Source: Mesorhizobium sp. B2-7-2
GTDB lineage: Bacteria; Pseudomonadota; Alphaproteobacteria; Rhizobiales; Rhizobiaceae
Direction of reading: 5' to 3'
Length of the DNA stretch: 64,000 bases
Assembly: GCF_006440775.1 (NCBI RefSeq)
Contig: NZ_VFTZ01000022.1
Coordinates: 1-64,000, forward strand
Positions 8,701 through 35,849 of the stretch are shown here, piece after piece. A model generated the notes under the pieces. The model searched no databases and was not told the origin of the DNA. It saw only the letters and a program-made list of their open reading frames with translations. Each line of letters starts with the position of its first letter. Position 1 is the stretch's first letter. A program made the translations under genes and the position numbers.

Positions 8701-9447
8701 TCACTTTCGTGCGAAGCTGAAGGTGAAATGGCTGCCGCGGTGATAGACGGCGGCATGGACGACCGGGGTTCCGGTCCCATCGAAACAGGTTTCCGTAATG
8801 AGCAGGGCTGGCCCGAAGTCGCGTAAGTCGTTGCGCTGCACGATTTCGTCGGGCAGCGTTACGGCTGCAACGGAGGCGGCCGACATACGCGGCTGATGGC
8901 GGTGCTTTTCCAGCAGGGCGAGCAGCGAGCCGCTCCATTCGATGTCGAAAAGGCGCCCCGGCAAAAGGCTGCGTGGTACGTAGTCGAGCGAATAAATGAG
9001 GGGCAGATCATTGTGCAGCCGCAGCCGTTCAAGCCGGATGACGCGCTCTCCGTCCGCTAACCGCAATTGCTGCTGGATCAATGGATCGGGCGTTTCCTCG
9101 TTGATGGAAAGAACCTTGTTGACGGTGTTGTAGCCATAGTGGCGCGACATGTCGGTCACGCTTTCGAACACCGTGATTGGACGGTCGACCTGGACGGCGG
9201 AGTTCGCGGTCACAAAGCGGCCGAGACCATGAGTGACGGAGATGATGCCGTCCTGTTCGAGAAGCTTCAGCGCTTCGCGCAGGGCAGGGCGCGAGATGCG
9301 GAAGCGCTGCGTCAGCTGGGATTCCGTTGGCAGCCGGTCGCCGGGCTTGAGCCCTTCGGTCCTGATGAGGTCGGCCATGCGGTCGCGCAGCTGAACCGCC
9401 AATGTGCGCGCGTCCCGAAGCGGCTCGTCCAAGTCCCTCTTCCCCAT
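8701..9447 (-). CDS. GntR-family regulator with UTRA effector domain (FrlR-like)
   Basis: A 248-residue regulator. The N-terminal winged helix (LPTESQLTQRFRISRPALRE and LEQDGIISVTHGLGRFV) is GntR-type; the remainder (about residues 90-248) is a UTRA small-molecule-binding domain of the HutC/FrlR class. Divergent from the SIS-domain deglycase and PfkB kinase genes, an arrangement also found in frl-type Amadori catabolism loci. AAGGAG before the ATG at 9447; a TTG ten codons upstream lacks support. Three copies of TGTCnnACAA in this locus are its likely operators, one directly upstream of its own start. Confidence 0.88.
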   Translation of the reverse strand: MGKRDLDEPLRDARTLAVQLRDRMADLIRTEGLKPGDRLPTESQLTQRFRISRPALREALKLLEQDGIISVTHGLGRFVTANSAVQVDRPITVFESVTDMSRHYGYNTVNKVLSINEETPDPLIQQQLRLADGERVIRLERLRLHNDLPLIYSLDYVPRSLLPGRLFDIEWSGSLLALLEKHRHQPRMSAASVAAVTLPDEIVQRNDLRDFGPALLITETCFDGTGTPVVHAAVYHRGSHFTFSFARK

Positions 9448-9466
9448 TGTGCCAACTCTCCTTTTG

Positions 9467-9477
9467 TTGTCGGACAA
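9467..9477. promoter_or_regulatory. Candidate GntR operator, site 1
   Basis: TTGTC-G-GACAA, a perfect inverted repeat 20 bp upstream of the GntR gene start. It shares TGTCnnACAA with the sites at 9588-9598 and 14663-14673, so autoregulation is likely. Confidence 0.55.
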
Positions 9478-9583
9478 TCGCGCTCAGGTCAAGCGGAGGC
9501 ATGCCGTGGCGATCGCATGTCGTATAGGCAACGTATGGGAACCTATCCGCAAAATTTCTCTTGAAATGCGCTCCCACAGATGT

Positions 9584-9600
9584 CAGTTGTCTTACAACTG
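9584..9600. promoter_or_regulatory. Candidate GntR operator, site 2
   Basis: CAGTTGT-CTT-ACAACTG, a perfect 7-bp inverted repeat ending 17 bp before the deglycase start. Its core TGTCTTACAAC differs at one base from TGTCTGACAAC upstream of the binding-protein gene. Confidence 0.6.
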
Positions 9601-9617
9601 AATTGATCGAGGGAACG

Positions 9618-10631
9618 ATGCTCAATTTCGATGAAGCCCGGTTTATGCGCATCCAATCGGGGGCGGTGGCCTTGCGCGAGCGCATTGAGGCCGTTGTGGC
9701 GCAGTGCCTCGCCGCCGAGGCGCAAAACATCTTCTTTCTCGGCACCGGCGGTGCAGCGATCCTGATGCATCCGGCGGCGCAATTGCTGCAGCGCCGATCT
9801 GGCTTTCCGGCCTTCGTCGACATCACCGCCGAGCTGCAGCTTGTCCAATCCGTGCACCTGACCGACAAATCGATCGTCGTGTTGCCCTCGCTCTCCGGCA
9901 CCACGAAGGAAAGCGTGGCACTGCTGTCCCGGATCAAGGACGTCGGGGCGACGGTGATCACGCTGGTCGGACATGAGGAGACGCCGCTCGGCAAGGGCGG
10001 GGACCATGTCTTCGTCAACTTCGCCGAGGACGACACGTCCTGCGAGTCCTTCTATCTCCAGTCGCTCTTCATCGCGCTTGCAGCGCTGAAGCATCGCGGC
10101 GAGCTCGCCGAATCCGAACGGATTTTCGCCGAACTGGAGCAGTTGCCGCGACTGTTGCTGGAGGTGAAGCAGAGCTATGAACAGGAAGCCGCCGGCTTCG
10201 CGCAAAAACTGGCCGCCACCGACTATCACATCATAACCGGCGCCGGGAATGTCTGGCCGCAGGCCTGGTATTACGGCATGTGCATCCTGGAGGAGATGCA
10301 GTGGATCCGGACCCGCCCCGTGCATGCTTCAGACTTTTTCCATGGCACCCTGGAGCTGGTAGACAAAGATGTCAGCGTGGTGCTCCTCAAGGGCGAGGAC
10401 AGCGCGCGGCCGCTGGCCGATCGCGTCGAGAAATTCACCCCTACCTATACGGACAAGTTGACGGTGCTCGACACCGCCGATTTTGAATTGCCCGGCATTT
10501 CGCCGGATGTGCGCGCGCTGGTTTCGCCGATAGTGCTCGCGACCGCCCTCGAACGGGTCAGCGCGCATCTCGAGGTGATCCGTAACCACCCGCTGACGAC
10601 GCGCCGCTACTATAAGCGCGTTGCCTATTGA
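9618..10631 (+). CDS. SIS-domain sugar-amine phosphate deglycase (FrlB-like)
   Basis: A 337-residue double-SIS isomerase/deglycase. It resembles FrlB/FraB, which split 6-phosphofructosyl-amino acids (or -aspartate) into glucose 6-phosphate and the amino acid. Alignable features: phosphosugar loop SLSGTTKES (91-99), E226 in ILEEMQW and H242 in FFHGTLELV, corresponding to the catalytic Glu and His of that group, and the C-terminal RRYYKRVAY. ATG at 9618 has GAGGGAACG just before it; earlier in-frame codons run through the operator and are not used. Followed by a PfkB kinase 40 bp downstream. Which glycated amine is used is not visible. Confidence 0.82.
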   Translation: MLNFDEARFMRIQSGAVALRERIEAVVAQCLAAEAQNIFFLGTGGAAILMHPAAQLLQRRSGFPAFVDITAELQLVQSVHLTDKSIVVLPSLSGTTKESVALLSRIKDVGATVITLVGHEETPLGKGGDHVFVNFAEDDTSCESFYLQSLFIALAALKHRGELAESERIFAELEQLPRLLLEVKQSYEQEAAGFAQKLAATDYHIITGAGNVWPQAWYYGMCILEEMQWIRTRPVHASDFFHGTLELVDKDVSVVLLKGEDSARPLADRVEKFTPTYTDKLTVLDTADFELPGISPDVRALVSPIVLATALERVSAHLEVIRNHPLTTRRYYKRVAY

Positions 10632-30457: not shown

Positions 30458-30880
30458 ATGAACGCAGCCAGGCCGCACGATCCGAGACCGCTTTCGGAGA
30501 TCGCCAGCTACCACGCCCACATCTATTACGGCGATGAGGCGCAGCGCCGACACGCCGAATGGCTGCGCCAGCGCATCGGCGAACGTTTTCGCGTACGGCT
30601 CGGCAACTGGCGCGACGAGCCGGTCGGCCCGCACGAGCAGGCCATGTACCAAGTCTCCTTCGCCACCGAGCTCTTCGCCACGCTGGTCCCCTGGCTGATG
30701 CTGAACCACGGCGGCCTCAGCATCCTCATCCACCCCAACACCGCCAACCCCAAGCGCGACCACCTGGTCGACCCGATCTGGATCGGCCAGGCGCTGCCGG
30801 TGAAGGGCGAGGTGCTCGGCGAGGAGGACGAGGCGGAAGAGCCGCTGGAGGTGAATACCGAGCCGACGCTGGGGGTGTGA
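30458..30880 (+). CDS. DOPA 4,5-dioxygenase family protein
   Basis: A 140-residue protein of the small DOPA-dioxygenase family. Conserved histidines sit in SYHAHIYYGD, GPHEQAMYQVSF and LMLNHGGLSILIHPNT. The stretch HLVDPIWIGQALPV is typical. Related enzymes perform extradiol ring cleavage, but bacterial members mostly have unknown substrates. GGGAGGGGAG before the ATG. Its 3' end faces the accessory block; after it the base composition shifts toward AT. Confidence 0.87.
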   Translation: MNAARPHDPRPLSEIASYHAHIYYGDEAQRRHAEWLRQRIGERFRVRLGNWRDEPVGPHEQAMYQVSFATELFATLVPWLMLNHGGLSILIHPNTANPKRDHLVDPIWIGQALPVKGEVLGEEDEAEEPLEVNTEPTLGV

Positions 30881-30952
30881 GGGGGCGAGGCTTGGCTATA
30901 TTGGCCTGGCCCAAGAATCACGCTCCCCTTCAGCGGGAGACTACATGGCCTG

Positions 30953-31618
30953 TTAATCGAGCTTCAGATGCTCCCATTCACGGATTATTGAAATGTAATT
31001 TTCCCGGAACACCTTCCCTTCATCGCCTCTCAATGGAGTTATCCGCGGCGAGAAGAAGGTTCGACGAAGGATGTCGATAATGCGCATGTCATCTGGATCG
31101 TATTTGGTCAAAGCTTGCTGCATAGCCCACAAGCCCAACCTGCCGCCTTCTTCAGGTAACGAGGGTTCCTCGCTGAAGTAGGGGTAGACGATACGTGTGT
31201 ACTCACCTCTTACGCGGGCATGCACAGCATCATGTACGCGAACGATACTTCCCATATCTCCGAATTGTAGCTTTCCGTGCACACTTTTCGGCACTATTTC
31301 GACAGGTTCGTTTGACCACCGCAGTTTCGCGTTAAGTAGGTCGACTACCCCATCCTTCAGGAGAGGGTATAGTCGTTTGAAATTCCTATTTGACTTTATT
31401 CGGCTGTCGGTCATCTCTGAAAGGTCTGCGACACCAGCAATATGCCTTTTCACGTCGGACCAAAAAGGCACGTAAAAATCGCCACCTTGGCTTCTGCTGC
31501 CCCCTGCTTCTTTTTTGCGGTCAAGTTGAATATCTTTCTTTAAAATCGAGCGGCGCAGCCGATCCGGCGCATAGAACAATTGCAGAATTTTACGGAGTGG
31601 GATGTCTTGCACTGACAT
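30953..31618 (-). CDS. Unrecognised 221-aa protein of the accessory block
   Basis: A cytoplasmic protein without signal peptide or membrane segment. The N-terminus is basic (RKILQLFYAPDRLRRSILKKDIQLDRKKEAGG), the middle mixed, and the C-terminus has RIIDILRRTFFSPRITPLRGDE. No family recognised. GATGAGG lies before the ATG. Codon use is clearly AT-richer than in the flanking genes, as in the two genes it faces at 31948-33272, suggesting joint acquisition. Possibly a regulator or a third component of the neighbouring system; no direct evidence. Confidence 0.7.
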   Translation of the reverse strand: MSVQDIPLRKILQLFYAPDRLRRSILKKDIQLDRKKEAGGSRSQGGDFYVPFWSDVKRHIAGVADLSEMTDSRIKSNRNFKRLYPLLKDGVVDLLNAKLRWSNEPVEIVPKSVHGKLQFGDMGSIVRVHDAVHARVRGEYTRIVYPYFSEEPSLPEEGGRLGLWAMQQALTKYDPDDMRIIDILRRTFFSPRITPLRGDEGKVFRENYISIIREWEHLKLD

Positions 31619-31947
31619 GCGTACCTCATCACAATAGAAGCCAAAAGTGGCTTTCTTGCTAATTTCATGTCAATATAATTTGTCAGTTTCCCACTAATCA
31701 TTGGTTTTTGGATTAGCCTTTGCTCGACTTCGTCCGGCTATCCACAAGGGCAAGCCCACGAGCAACGTCTCCTTTGTTTCGCAGGAGGTCCGTGCGAATT
31801 TATCAAATTTGGACATGGAACAAAAAGGGAACATGTGCGATAATGCATCGTCATGTCCACCCTAGCCGCCACCCAGCGTGAGAATCAGACTCCACATTTT
31901 GCCGTCTCTCTGATCCTATGGGATGGGCAAAAAGGGGGGCTATTATC
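31619..31947. promoter_or_regulatory. AT-rich divergent promoter region
   Basis: About 330 bases between the unrecognised 221-aa gene and the coupled pair at 31948-33272. It contains the LexA-type box at 31818-31832, a GATAAT -10-like hexamer at 31839-31844 and AT-rich tracts around 31665-31685. No gene seen inside. Confidence 0.5.
31818..31832. promoter_or_regulatory. Alphaproteobacterial LexA-type (SOS) box
   Basis: GAACAAAAAGGGAAC fits GAAC-N7-GAAC exactly; the extended form GAACA-N6-GAACA is also met. It overlaps the presumed promoter: TGGAAC at 31816-31821 could serve as -35 with GATAAT at 31839-31844, spacing 17. This predicts repression by LexA and induction by DNA damage. A chance match in a 330-bp gap is unlikely but not excluded. 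Confidence 0.6.
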
Positions 31948-32790
31948 GTGGAAAAGACTTTCACGTTCCGTTTCTATAACGTGACACGCAATAACAATCA
32001 CACGCCGGCCATGGTTGATATCCTTCGTTTGGTTGCCGGTATCGCGGACAAAACCCAGCGAGAGAAACTTCTGGCCACGGACTACATCGTTCGGCTTGAA
32101 AACCTAGAAGATGACGGTCCAAATGCTGTAGTCGGGGAGTTAACCCGGTGCCAGAATACAAATCTCCCATCGGAAATAGATCACGGTGACAGGAGACCGC
32201 TTGAGGTAGAGCGGCTGGGACATAGCGTCGTCTTCCGGTTCAATCATCAAATGGGCGTATTGGGCATTCAATATGACCCTCGAATTATCTCGCCGGGTCG
32301 CGTTCTCGAATATCTGTCGGCTTTCAACGCAGCCGCGATCTACGAGATGCAGCCCAGAATCAACGAAGAGGCCTGGGCGAAATTCAATGCGGGCGAAACA
32401 AGGAAGCTCTCGATCAGAATAGCCAATCCTGACGATATGGGCGTGTTCGCTGGGCCAGCTCAGGCGGCCAGCGATAGCTTCAGAGCGATGGGAGACGCAT
32501 ACGGAGCACCACTCGTTACTGTCGAGATTTCCATGGGCCACCACAGAGGCTTCCTTTCCAATGCGGTGCGAGGGCTGGCTGCCCAACTTGCCAACATGAA
32601 CTTCCCCGGTGTGCGCCTGGATCGACTGACCGCAAAAACCGTTGTGAACGACGCCTCGGAAGAGATTGACCTGATTGAAGATCGTGTCGTCGCGCGAGAA
32701 ACGCTAGAAATCCACGACCGAGACCCGGACATAAACTGGCAGGTGAAAAGAAACTATTTAAACCAAACGATGCAGCAGATATTCGGATGA
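31948..32790 (+). CDS. RexA-like candidate: soluble 280-aa protein of a coupled two-gene unit
   Basis: No signal peptide or membrane segment. The N-terminal part is strand-rich (KTFTFRFYNVTRNN), the middle includes ISPGRVLEYLSAFNAAAIYE and RINEEAWAKFNAGETRKLSI, and the C-terminus is charged and helical. No family named with confidence. Length, order before a small four-helix membrane protein, and a loosely similar block order recall lambda RexA (279 aa). The start is GTG at 31948 because GGGGGG stands eight bases before it; the in-frame ATG at 31918 lacks a ribosome site. It overlaps the next gene by ATGA. A LexA-type box lies about 115 bp upstream. AT-richer than surroundings. Confidence 0.6.
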   Translation: MEKTFTFRFYNVTRNNNHTPAMVDILRLVAGIADKTQREKLLATDYIVRLENLEDDGPNAVVGELTRCQNTNLPSEIDHGDRRPLEVERLGHSVVFRFNHQMGVLGIQYDPRIISPGRVLEYLSAFNAAAIYEMQPRINEEAWAKFNAGETRKLSIRIANPDDMGVFAGPAQAASDSFRAMGDAYGAPLVTVEISMGHHRGFLSNAVRGLAAQLANMNFPGVRLDRLTAKTVVNDASEEIDLIEDRVVARETLEIHDRDPDINWQVKRNYLNQTMQQIFG

Positions 32791-33272
32791 AAAAATTTAG
32801 ATATCTTGCCGAAAGGTATGGGCCGTCAACTTTGGCTCTGGTTTTGGCTGCGCTTGTCTATTATTTTAGAGTTCCACTTAGCGATGGTGCGCAGGAAGAG
32901 AAAATAGATTTTTCGGGACTATATTCATCAGTGTTCGACTGGTCGTCAATCCAGACTGGATTCTTATTCGGAATTTATGGTTATGTCGCCGGTAAGTCAG
33001 ATGGTTTTATCGCAGCGGTAAAAAACACGCCGGCTATGATTTTGTTTATTGGGTATACCAAGGTGGCGACATATCTGGGATTCTTTGTTACGTTCTTTTC
33101 CATCCCATTGATAGTTGTCGATTTTTCGATAACGCCAGCGGCTTGGTGGCGCTATGTGATCTTCATTGGATGGTCGTTTTTCTCGATTTGGGCCTTTTTC
33201 GCCTTCTTGCGGGTAGCGTATGTCTTCGGTCACTTGATTCGACCGGCTGACCAGAACAGAATTACAGGATGA
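32787..33272 (+). CDS. RexB-like candidate: four-helix membrane protein
   Basis: A 161-residue integral membrane protein with hydrophobic segments at about residues 12-29, 55-70, 85-113 and 122-146. A basic N-terminus (MKKFRYLAERYG) and basic C-terminus (HLIRPADQNR) suggest both ends are inside. Lambda RexB (144 aa, four helices) and Kiwa KwaA are comparable in topology, but I see no clear residue-level homology. Its ATG overlaps the preceding stop (ATGA), so the two products are made together. Likely role if the Rex analogy holds: a membrane effector or channel gated by the soluble partner. Confidence 0.65.
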   Translation: MKKFRYLAERYGPSTLALVLAALVYYFRVPLSDGAQEEKIDFSGLYSSVFDWSSIQTGFLFGIYGYVAGKSDGFIAAVKNTPAMILFIGYTKVATYLGFFVTFFSIPLIVVDFSITPAAWWRYVIFIGWSFFSIWAFFAFLRVAYVFGHLIRPADQNRITG

Positions 33273-33429
33273 CAGCCAAAGGCGCGGGGTAGCGGTTCGA
33301 CCGCCCCTAAGAGCGATGGCTACTAAGCCACTCCCGGCGCTATGGTTTACAGCGCCGTGCAGATAACCAAGTTCTGACAGTTCGCGGAACGCGCTAGCCT
33401 CATTGGAAGCAAGCTACCAAAGCCCGCTC

Positions 33430-33665
33430 ACCCTCCGCCAACCTCTGCAACAGAACAACCTCCGGCCCCTCCGGCAATTCCTTCCCCCACGTATCCCGAT
33501 AAATCACCCCGTCGATCGCGCGACCGCAATCCCCCGATCAATCCACGGCTCGATCCCGGGATACGTCCGCATGCTTGCGGAACAGCTTCCTGATGTCCTT
33601 GGCCTCGATGTCGTGCCTGGCTTTGCCCCCGGGCGACGGCGCCAAGCGAGCCCCAGAGGATGACT
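33430..33665 (-). pseudogene. Decayed moaD-like copy
   Basis: About 235 bases clearly homologous to the intact MoaD-like gene at 35604-35849 in the same orientation, for example the shared stretches CACGTATCCCGATAAATC and CTTGCGGAACAGCT. One fragment still reads YPGIEPWIDRGIAVA. Frame changes and a lost start and end (no Gly-Gly terminus) show it is not functional. It marks a duplication about 2.2 kb apart. Confidence 0.8.
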
Positions 33666-33696
33666 TCCCCAGCTTGGACCGGGCCCTGTTACGCCC

Positions 33697-35603: not shown

Positions 35604-35849
35604 TCACCCCCCAGCCAGCCGCGGCAGCAGGAAAATCTCCGCCCCCTCCGGCAACTCCTTGCTCCACGTATCCCGATAAATCGTCCCATCGATCGCCACC
35701 GCGATGCCGCGATCGATCCAGGGCTCGATCCCGGGATATTGTTCCGCCAGCTTGCGGAACAGCTCCCTTATGTCCTTGGCCTCGATCTCGTGCTTGGCCT
35801 TGCCGCCGGCGACGGCGCTGAGCGAGCCCCAAAGGGTGACTGCGACCAT
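35604..35849 (-). CDS. MoaD/ThiS-family ubiquitin-like protein
   Basis: An 81-residue beta-grasp protein ending LPRLAGG; the terminal Gly-Gly is the sulfur-carrying end in MoaD and ThiS. It follows the molybdenum hydroxylase operon on the same strand (235 bp after the large subunit), so a part in molybdopterin synthesis or in maturing that enzyme is plausible. A decayed second copy lies at 33430-33665. Which of the MoaD-like subtypes it is cannot be told. Confidence 0.8.
   Translation of the reverse strand: MVAVTLWGSLSAVAGGKAKHEIEAKDIRELFRKLAEQYPGIEPWIDRGIAVAIDGTIYRDTWSKELPEGAEIFLLPRLAGG

Follow-up and report, generated by a model that had tools for sequence, protein, structure and literature searches.

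Do two overlapping genes behind a LexA-type box, here called A and B, form a phage-defence system that the bacterium switches on through its own DNA-damage response? The question is raised by positions 31818-33272 of a 64,000-nucleotide stretch from Mesorhizobium sp. B2-7-2 (contig NZ_VFTZ01000022.1, positions 1 to 64,000; hereafter the window). We consider it reasonably probable, at roughly 60%, that the locus holds an abortive-infection cassette of RexAB type, from the DUF6731 branch, placed under the host LexA. It would be RexAB-type by fold, gene order and surroundings and lies outside the sequence families of lambda RexA and RexB, and the variant is apparently new in being chromosomal and SOS-linked. 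An earlier note, made from the sequence alone, had proposed a horizontally acquired, damage-induced membrane effector with a soluble sensor, a proposal that finds support in the RexA fold of A, the conservation of the pair, its carriage by viral contigs, its position in an insertion hotspot and the box. The unit has the following features (aa, amino acids; nt, nucleotides).

31948-32790, + strand: gene A, 280 aa, soluble, predicted RexA fold, DUF6731 family by profile, GTG start
32787-33272, + strand: gene B, 161 aa, predicted four-helix membrane protein whose position and topology resemble those of RexB
32787-32790, + strand: ATGA overlap of the A stop and the B start, with the same junction in L003, L005, L010-L013 and L082
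31818-31832, + strand: candidate LexA (SOS) box GAACAAAAAGGGAAC, exact GAAC-N7-GAAC, 115 nt 5' of the gene A GTG

Conservation of the gene pair

The coordinates confirm that the two genes are joined by ATGA, as first noticed. The frame of gene A is open from either ATG 31918 or GTG 31948 to 32790, and the GTG appears to be the better start because the purine-rich AGGGGGG lies just 5' of it and because M[DE]K or a close variant stands at this point in nearly all of the 33 aligned relatives. From the GTG the previously claimed length of 280 aa holds, and averaged hydropathy, with no hydrophobic segment, agrees with a soluble protein.

At all 17 distinct loci that were found through gene A and whose contig continues past it (the window; L002-L008; L010-L014; L017, L018, L019 and L028), a gene B homologue lies directly 3' on the same strand; L009 was left out of this count because its contig ends inside A, and L093, found through B, has the pair as well. 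This is the co-occurrence whose absence the earlier note had named as a refutation, and it supplies the adjacent four-segment membrane protein, encoded in the same operon, that characterises RexAB-type systems. The association extends beyond close relatives of A: five of 398 genomes sampled across the phylum carry a DUF6731 gene above cut-off, in a search that misses the window's own, too divergent gene A, and in four of the five (L081-L084) it is followed by an open reading frame (ORF) of 138-166 aa with three or four hydrophobic segments. Searching with B gave ten viral loci, eight of them distinct, and a full gene A lies upstream in six.

With the window's own genome counted each time, 3 of 121 near relatives carry gene A, as do 6 of 397 genomes sampled from the order and 1 of 289 from the class; two other families, both overlapping the order sample, gave 2 of 199 and 2 of 20 genomes. 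The proteins listed comprise at least 64 relatives of gene A and 25 further DUF6731 proteins. A sub-threshold DUF6731 match was seen in the control genome of Methanocaldococcus jannaschii, and the domain may reach beyond bacteria. In genome G130 (L023:7109-8185, 9156-10566) the A/B pair is divergent from, and about 1 kilobase off, a gene read by eye as recA.

Gene A: family and predicted fold

Gene A had been described as belonging to no recognised family, a description that we revise. Against Pfam DUF6731 (PF20505) it scores 18.9 bits, below the 27-bit cut-off, and among the 64 relatives listed for it (at least 64 in all, the window's own protein included), 21 carry the DUF6731 label. When a profile of 33 members of the gene A branch was compared by hhalign with five genes above the DUF6731 cut-off, the result was 98.6% with an E-value of 9.5e-16 over 251 columns, and 60 block-shuffled controls reached at most 21.6 against 95.4 for the real comparison. 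Because this profile-profile score stands far above the shuffled controls, gene A is, on profile evidence, a DUF6731 member, yet one of a divergent branch that has its own partner sequence family; gene A taken alone falls under the Pfam cut-off. In the papers searched, DUF6731 and PF20505 gave no text match.

The structure-based search that had been suggested for A led to the same neighbourhood as the proposal itself, with lambda RexA as the best PDB match of the gene A model (Foldseek/VIA). The fold Z is 12.8 to RexA, as opposed to 5.3-5.8 to RdgC, a member of the same fold family, and RdgC is not the nearest fold. On this model, gene A would provide the soluble RexA fold by which RexAB-type systems are recognised. 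Arg or Lys occupies 11 of the 51 invariant or nearly invariant positions, in keeping with contact to DNA.

Other searches returned little. By sequence, gene A against solved structures gave one chance row (E 0.09), and the phage and plasmid record collections held no match to it at E 1e-5. Neither A nor B matched PADLOC at E up to 1, a search run without a positive control for the Kwa models of that library; among the 50 matches listed in the gene A fold table there is no Kiwa row, which is no test of absence.

Gene B: topology and relation to RexB

The four hydrophobic helices attributed to the 161-aa gene B are borne out by hydropathy averaged over 37 homologues (segments 11-27, 53-69, 94-110 and 125-141) and by an AlphaFold model with four long helices (2-26, 42-69, 82-110 and 120-151; predicted local distance difference test score, pLDDT, 88.8; predicted template modelling score, pTM, 0.81); under a strict threshold the single sequence gives two segments. 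For comparison, RexB has its segments at 8-24, 49-65, 89-105 and 116-132, and the proteins that accompany other DUF6731 genes have theirs at 10-26, 48-64, 90-106 and 115-131. Library scans found no family for gene B, and comparison with solved structures by sequence gave nothing. These partners of other DUF6731 genes (four sequences, set A9) are weakly similar both to RexB (E 0.0015) and to gene B (E 5.8e-4, or 0.003 in the trimmed alignment of the control script), and both legs of this transitive link exceed all 60 block-shuffled controls and the reversed control. We take it as a weak lead to RexB and not as proof.

The candidate SOS box

The exact GAAC-N7-GAAC box that had been noticed is present at 31818-31832, and its claimed overlap with the promoter is unproven, no consensus sigma-70 promoter having been found. 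Taken alone, the box is weak evidence: three exact copies occur in the window against 1.39 expected, a number reached by 12 of 100 shuffles, and genome-wide there are 141 against 174 for the reversed control. With no genome-wide enrichment, the exact motif was rejected as stand-alone evidence.

Its company is more informative. From the genome-wide sites listed (the first 100 of 141) we wrote an AT-rich refined form, GAACRWAARRRGAAC, which occurs ten times in the genome and not once for the reversed control; this count is descriptive only, because the form was written after viewing a list that includes the window site. The genome's LexA exceeds the NCBIfam cut-off, and GAACACAACTGGAAC ends 62 nt before its ORF start. 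With genes assigned to boxes by eye, refined sites precede ssb, an AAA/UvrD-like helicase gene, a DUF2130 gene, two small paralogous-looking genes and gene A, two more fall where IMS-family (DinB-type) polymerase genes begin, and the remaining two have no clear target. By motif comparison, gene A has a candidate operator of the type that stands in front of lexA and further SOS genes in the same genome. The DUF2130 gene (G000:C12:175001, L044) has a 15-mer identical to GAACAAAAAGGGAAC upstream, which suggests that it belongs to the damage regulon of this genome. Two similar genes of 114 and 105 aa each stand behind a refined box (L040:1409-1753, - strand; L048:1785-2102, + strand).

Among relatives, exact boxes precede A in L006 (Methylobacterium), L007 (Rhodopseudomonas) and L009 (Bradyrhizobium), the last with the same 15-mer as L007 and perhaps not independent of it. 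Including the window, the exact box occurs in 4 of 24 upstream regions, each 250 nt long, where shuffles would lead one to expect 0.12. One-mismatch boxes upstream of the relatives were discarded, with an 8-24% chance of one per region.

Viral carriage and the insertion hotspot

On predicted viral contigs (IMG/VR), gene A is carried as cargo close to genes for virion, packaging or lysis functions. It lies between a phrog_55 connector gene and the tail gene preceding the tape measure in L014, between a head-tail adaptor and a major head gene in L093, 5' of terminase small subunits in L010 and L012, 5' of terminase and portal genes in L011, and close to an endolysin gene in L013. Loci in cellular genomes include one by an endolysin gene (L083), one by antitermination-Q-like and HNH genes (L084) and one by a terminase-like gene (L021).

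In the window, the pair occupies a variable site.

30883-33690, no strand: hotspot of variable insertion, flanked by a DOPA 4,5-dioxygenase-like gene and a DUF768 region, with differing cargo in relatives

The content of guanine and cytosine is 0.44-0.57 across about 30750-33500 against mostly 0.60-0.70 outside, as the earlier remark on AT-richness had implied. We read seven Mesorhizobium sites (L106-L112), picked among at least 61 genomes listed because both flanks stood close together. Every one of the seven follows the window on the left as far as 30870-30887; on the right, the match sets in again at 33422-33695 in six of them and at 35598 in L111, and the cargo in between differs; profile search found neither A nor B at any of the seven. 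Nine proteins from six of these sites (without L109), together with one from L113, another place, were submitted to PADLOC, and known defence genes were found at three of the six: Upx in L108 (8.3e-214), a type IIG restriction enzyme in L110 (3.3e-76), and in L111 a type II methyltransferase (2.1e-45), next to which stands an AAA gene that matches LmuB/PbeC weakly.

A small gene named by eye as MoaD-like is present in two copies (33422-33667 and 35605-35848), about 79-81% identical by cross-matches in relatives; the second copy borders the hotspot, and the copies may act as recombination borders.

The same low-GC island holds a further gene.

30953-31618, - strand: 221-aa gene in divergent orientation, outside the conserved pair

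It has no family at curated cut-offs, and being absent from every other fetched A locus it was rejected as a third component. Among the fetched loci its only homologue is L113:8337-9023, 83% identical, in another Mesorhizobium genome that lacks A and B at this locus; there it adjoins a 1015-aa gene with weak PADLOC matches to SIR2-type Argonaute-associated models.

Comparison with known systems and a proposed mechanism

As had been claimed from the sequence, the pair resembles lambda rexA/rexB in order, size and topology: 280 and 161 aa against 279 and 144, a soluble protein with a RexA fold followed by a four-segment membrane protein with similar segment spacing. Lambda's genes are phage-borne, and relatives of the window pair sit on viral contigs. 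The two systems differ in that there is no direct sequence match, and in that lambda rex follows cI in the immunity region, as a lysogen gene expressed with cI, whereas the window copy sits on the chromosome, at a variable site for defence genes and behind a LexA-type box. In the lambda record J02459 (L027), rexB, rexA and cI (by position) are all labelled 'rexb (exclusion;144)'. RexABpp of Pseudomonas putida (PP_5643-5644) differs again, lying in the operon of a positively autoregulated prophage repressor gene (PMC12894663). Kiwa likewise combines a membrane protein with a dimeric DNA-binding protein, according to one paper (PMC12904381), and lambda RexA is said in another also to bias the lytic switch (PMC11077077).

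It is plausible that LexA bound at 31818-31832 holds the operon low, and that activated RecA, arising from phage replication, prophage induction or other DNA damage, would lead to LexA cleavage and turn the operon on, A and B being co-translated through the ATGA overlap. In this model, A would dimerise and, in the manner of RexA and RdgC, bind DNA irrespective of its sequence, and on meeting phage replication or recombination intermediates would activate B, a putative four-helix inner-membrane oligomer whose channel would open, depolarising the cell, stopping growth and aborting the infection. According to a 2026 paper, RexB is held to be a former of ion channels that is activated by RexA; P. 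putida RexA binds DNA non-specifically, and its overexpression causes RexB-dependent arrest, with membrane damage in part of the cells, while contact between RexA and RexB was not shown in two-hybrid assays (PMC12894663).

Contrary evidence and alternatives

Several results weigh against the RexAB-type reading. Structurally, the TM-score of the gene A model to RexA is just 0.35 at a root-mean-square deviation of 15.7-17.5 Å, and RdgC all but ties with RexA in Foldseek E-value; the large deviation fits moved domains, short of proof. At the level of sequence, hhalign gave no link between gene A and lambda RexA above controls, the direct profile comparison of gene B with RexB was null (50 of 60 shuffles score as well), and neither Pfam RexA (PF15969) nor RexB (PF15968) matched A or B at E up to 1, the same models matching lambda's own RexA and RexB at 1.4e-96 and 8.2e-92. 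In the genomes, the fifth DUF6731 gene of the phylum sample (L085) has no membrane neighbour; a full A is missing from two of the distinct viral B loci, which number eight, L089 having an intact B with no A detected and L090-L092, identical over the pair, only a short C-terminal A remnant; three of the six scanned hotspot sites gave no PADLOC match; and the exact box is missing from 20 of the 24 upstream regions, all six viral ones included. Because of this last result, SOS control looks like a feature of some chromosomal copies and not a family trait.

Sequence proof of RexA homology was abandoned, since the gene A branch, wider DUF6731 sets and up to ten RexA relatives all stayed at noise: set A1 was equalled by 22 of 60 shuffles and beaten by the reversed control, set A8 was equalled by 20 of 60 and set A6 by one of 60. 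As hhalign to RexA stayed at this level, the RexA claim is one of fold.

We think it unlikely that the same parts form an SOS-controlled growth-arrest device serving mainly damage tolerance, through dormancy during DNA repair, with phage defence secondary. Such a device would fit the box form, which lexA, ssb and DinB-type genes also have, and P. putida RexB, which causes growth arrest rather than death (PMC12894663), but carriage on viral contigs, a site that holds defence genes in relatives and the lack of the box at most family loci speak against it. Still less likely are reversed roles as reported for mycobacteriophage Butters, with A as a soluble effector restrained by its membrane partner B; A and B are tightly coupled and one described Rex-like system is of this kind, whereas those of lambda, CarolAnn, Sbash and P. 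putida operate the opposite way (PMC12894663). For a pure antitoxin, moreover, it would be odd that two viral loci retain B without full A. Such contigs should not persist if B were a constitutive killer.

A Kiwa-like split, in which B with its four helices would detect injection at the membrane while the soluble A binds phage DNA and blocks it, is very improbable: the partnership and the four helices of KwaA are alike, but the gene order differs from that of kwaAB, A and B have no PADLOC match at E up to 1 and the top fold match of A is RexA. We give as little credence to an RdgC-like modulator of RecA or recombination that has no abortive effect, steers SOS or the switching of prophages and is anchored to the membrane by B, for despite the Foldseek near tie and the lytic-switch role of RexA, the Z to RdgC is much the lower and RdgC is not known to have a membrane partner.

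Implications

RexAB is, to our knowledge, the oldest known abortive-infection system. Just five examples are described and the lambda trigger remains unknown, as stated in the 2026 paper (PMC12894663). Beyond the window, we would give even odds that DUF6731 with a four-segment partner constitutes an unrecognised RexAB branch on temperate phages and chromosomes across Proteobacteria, its chromosomal copy wired to LexA in three alphaproteobacterial lineages. If true, the arrangement would reverse the lambda logic, with DNA damage switching the abort pair on and phage replication or prophage induction arming it. The RexAB-type reading would assign a function to the DUF6731 domain, and a branch found on chromosomes and predicted viral contigs, partly LexA-boxed, would offer tractable new systems in soil bacteria and make DNA damage as the arming signal directly testable.
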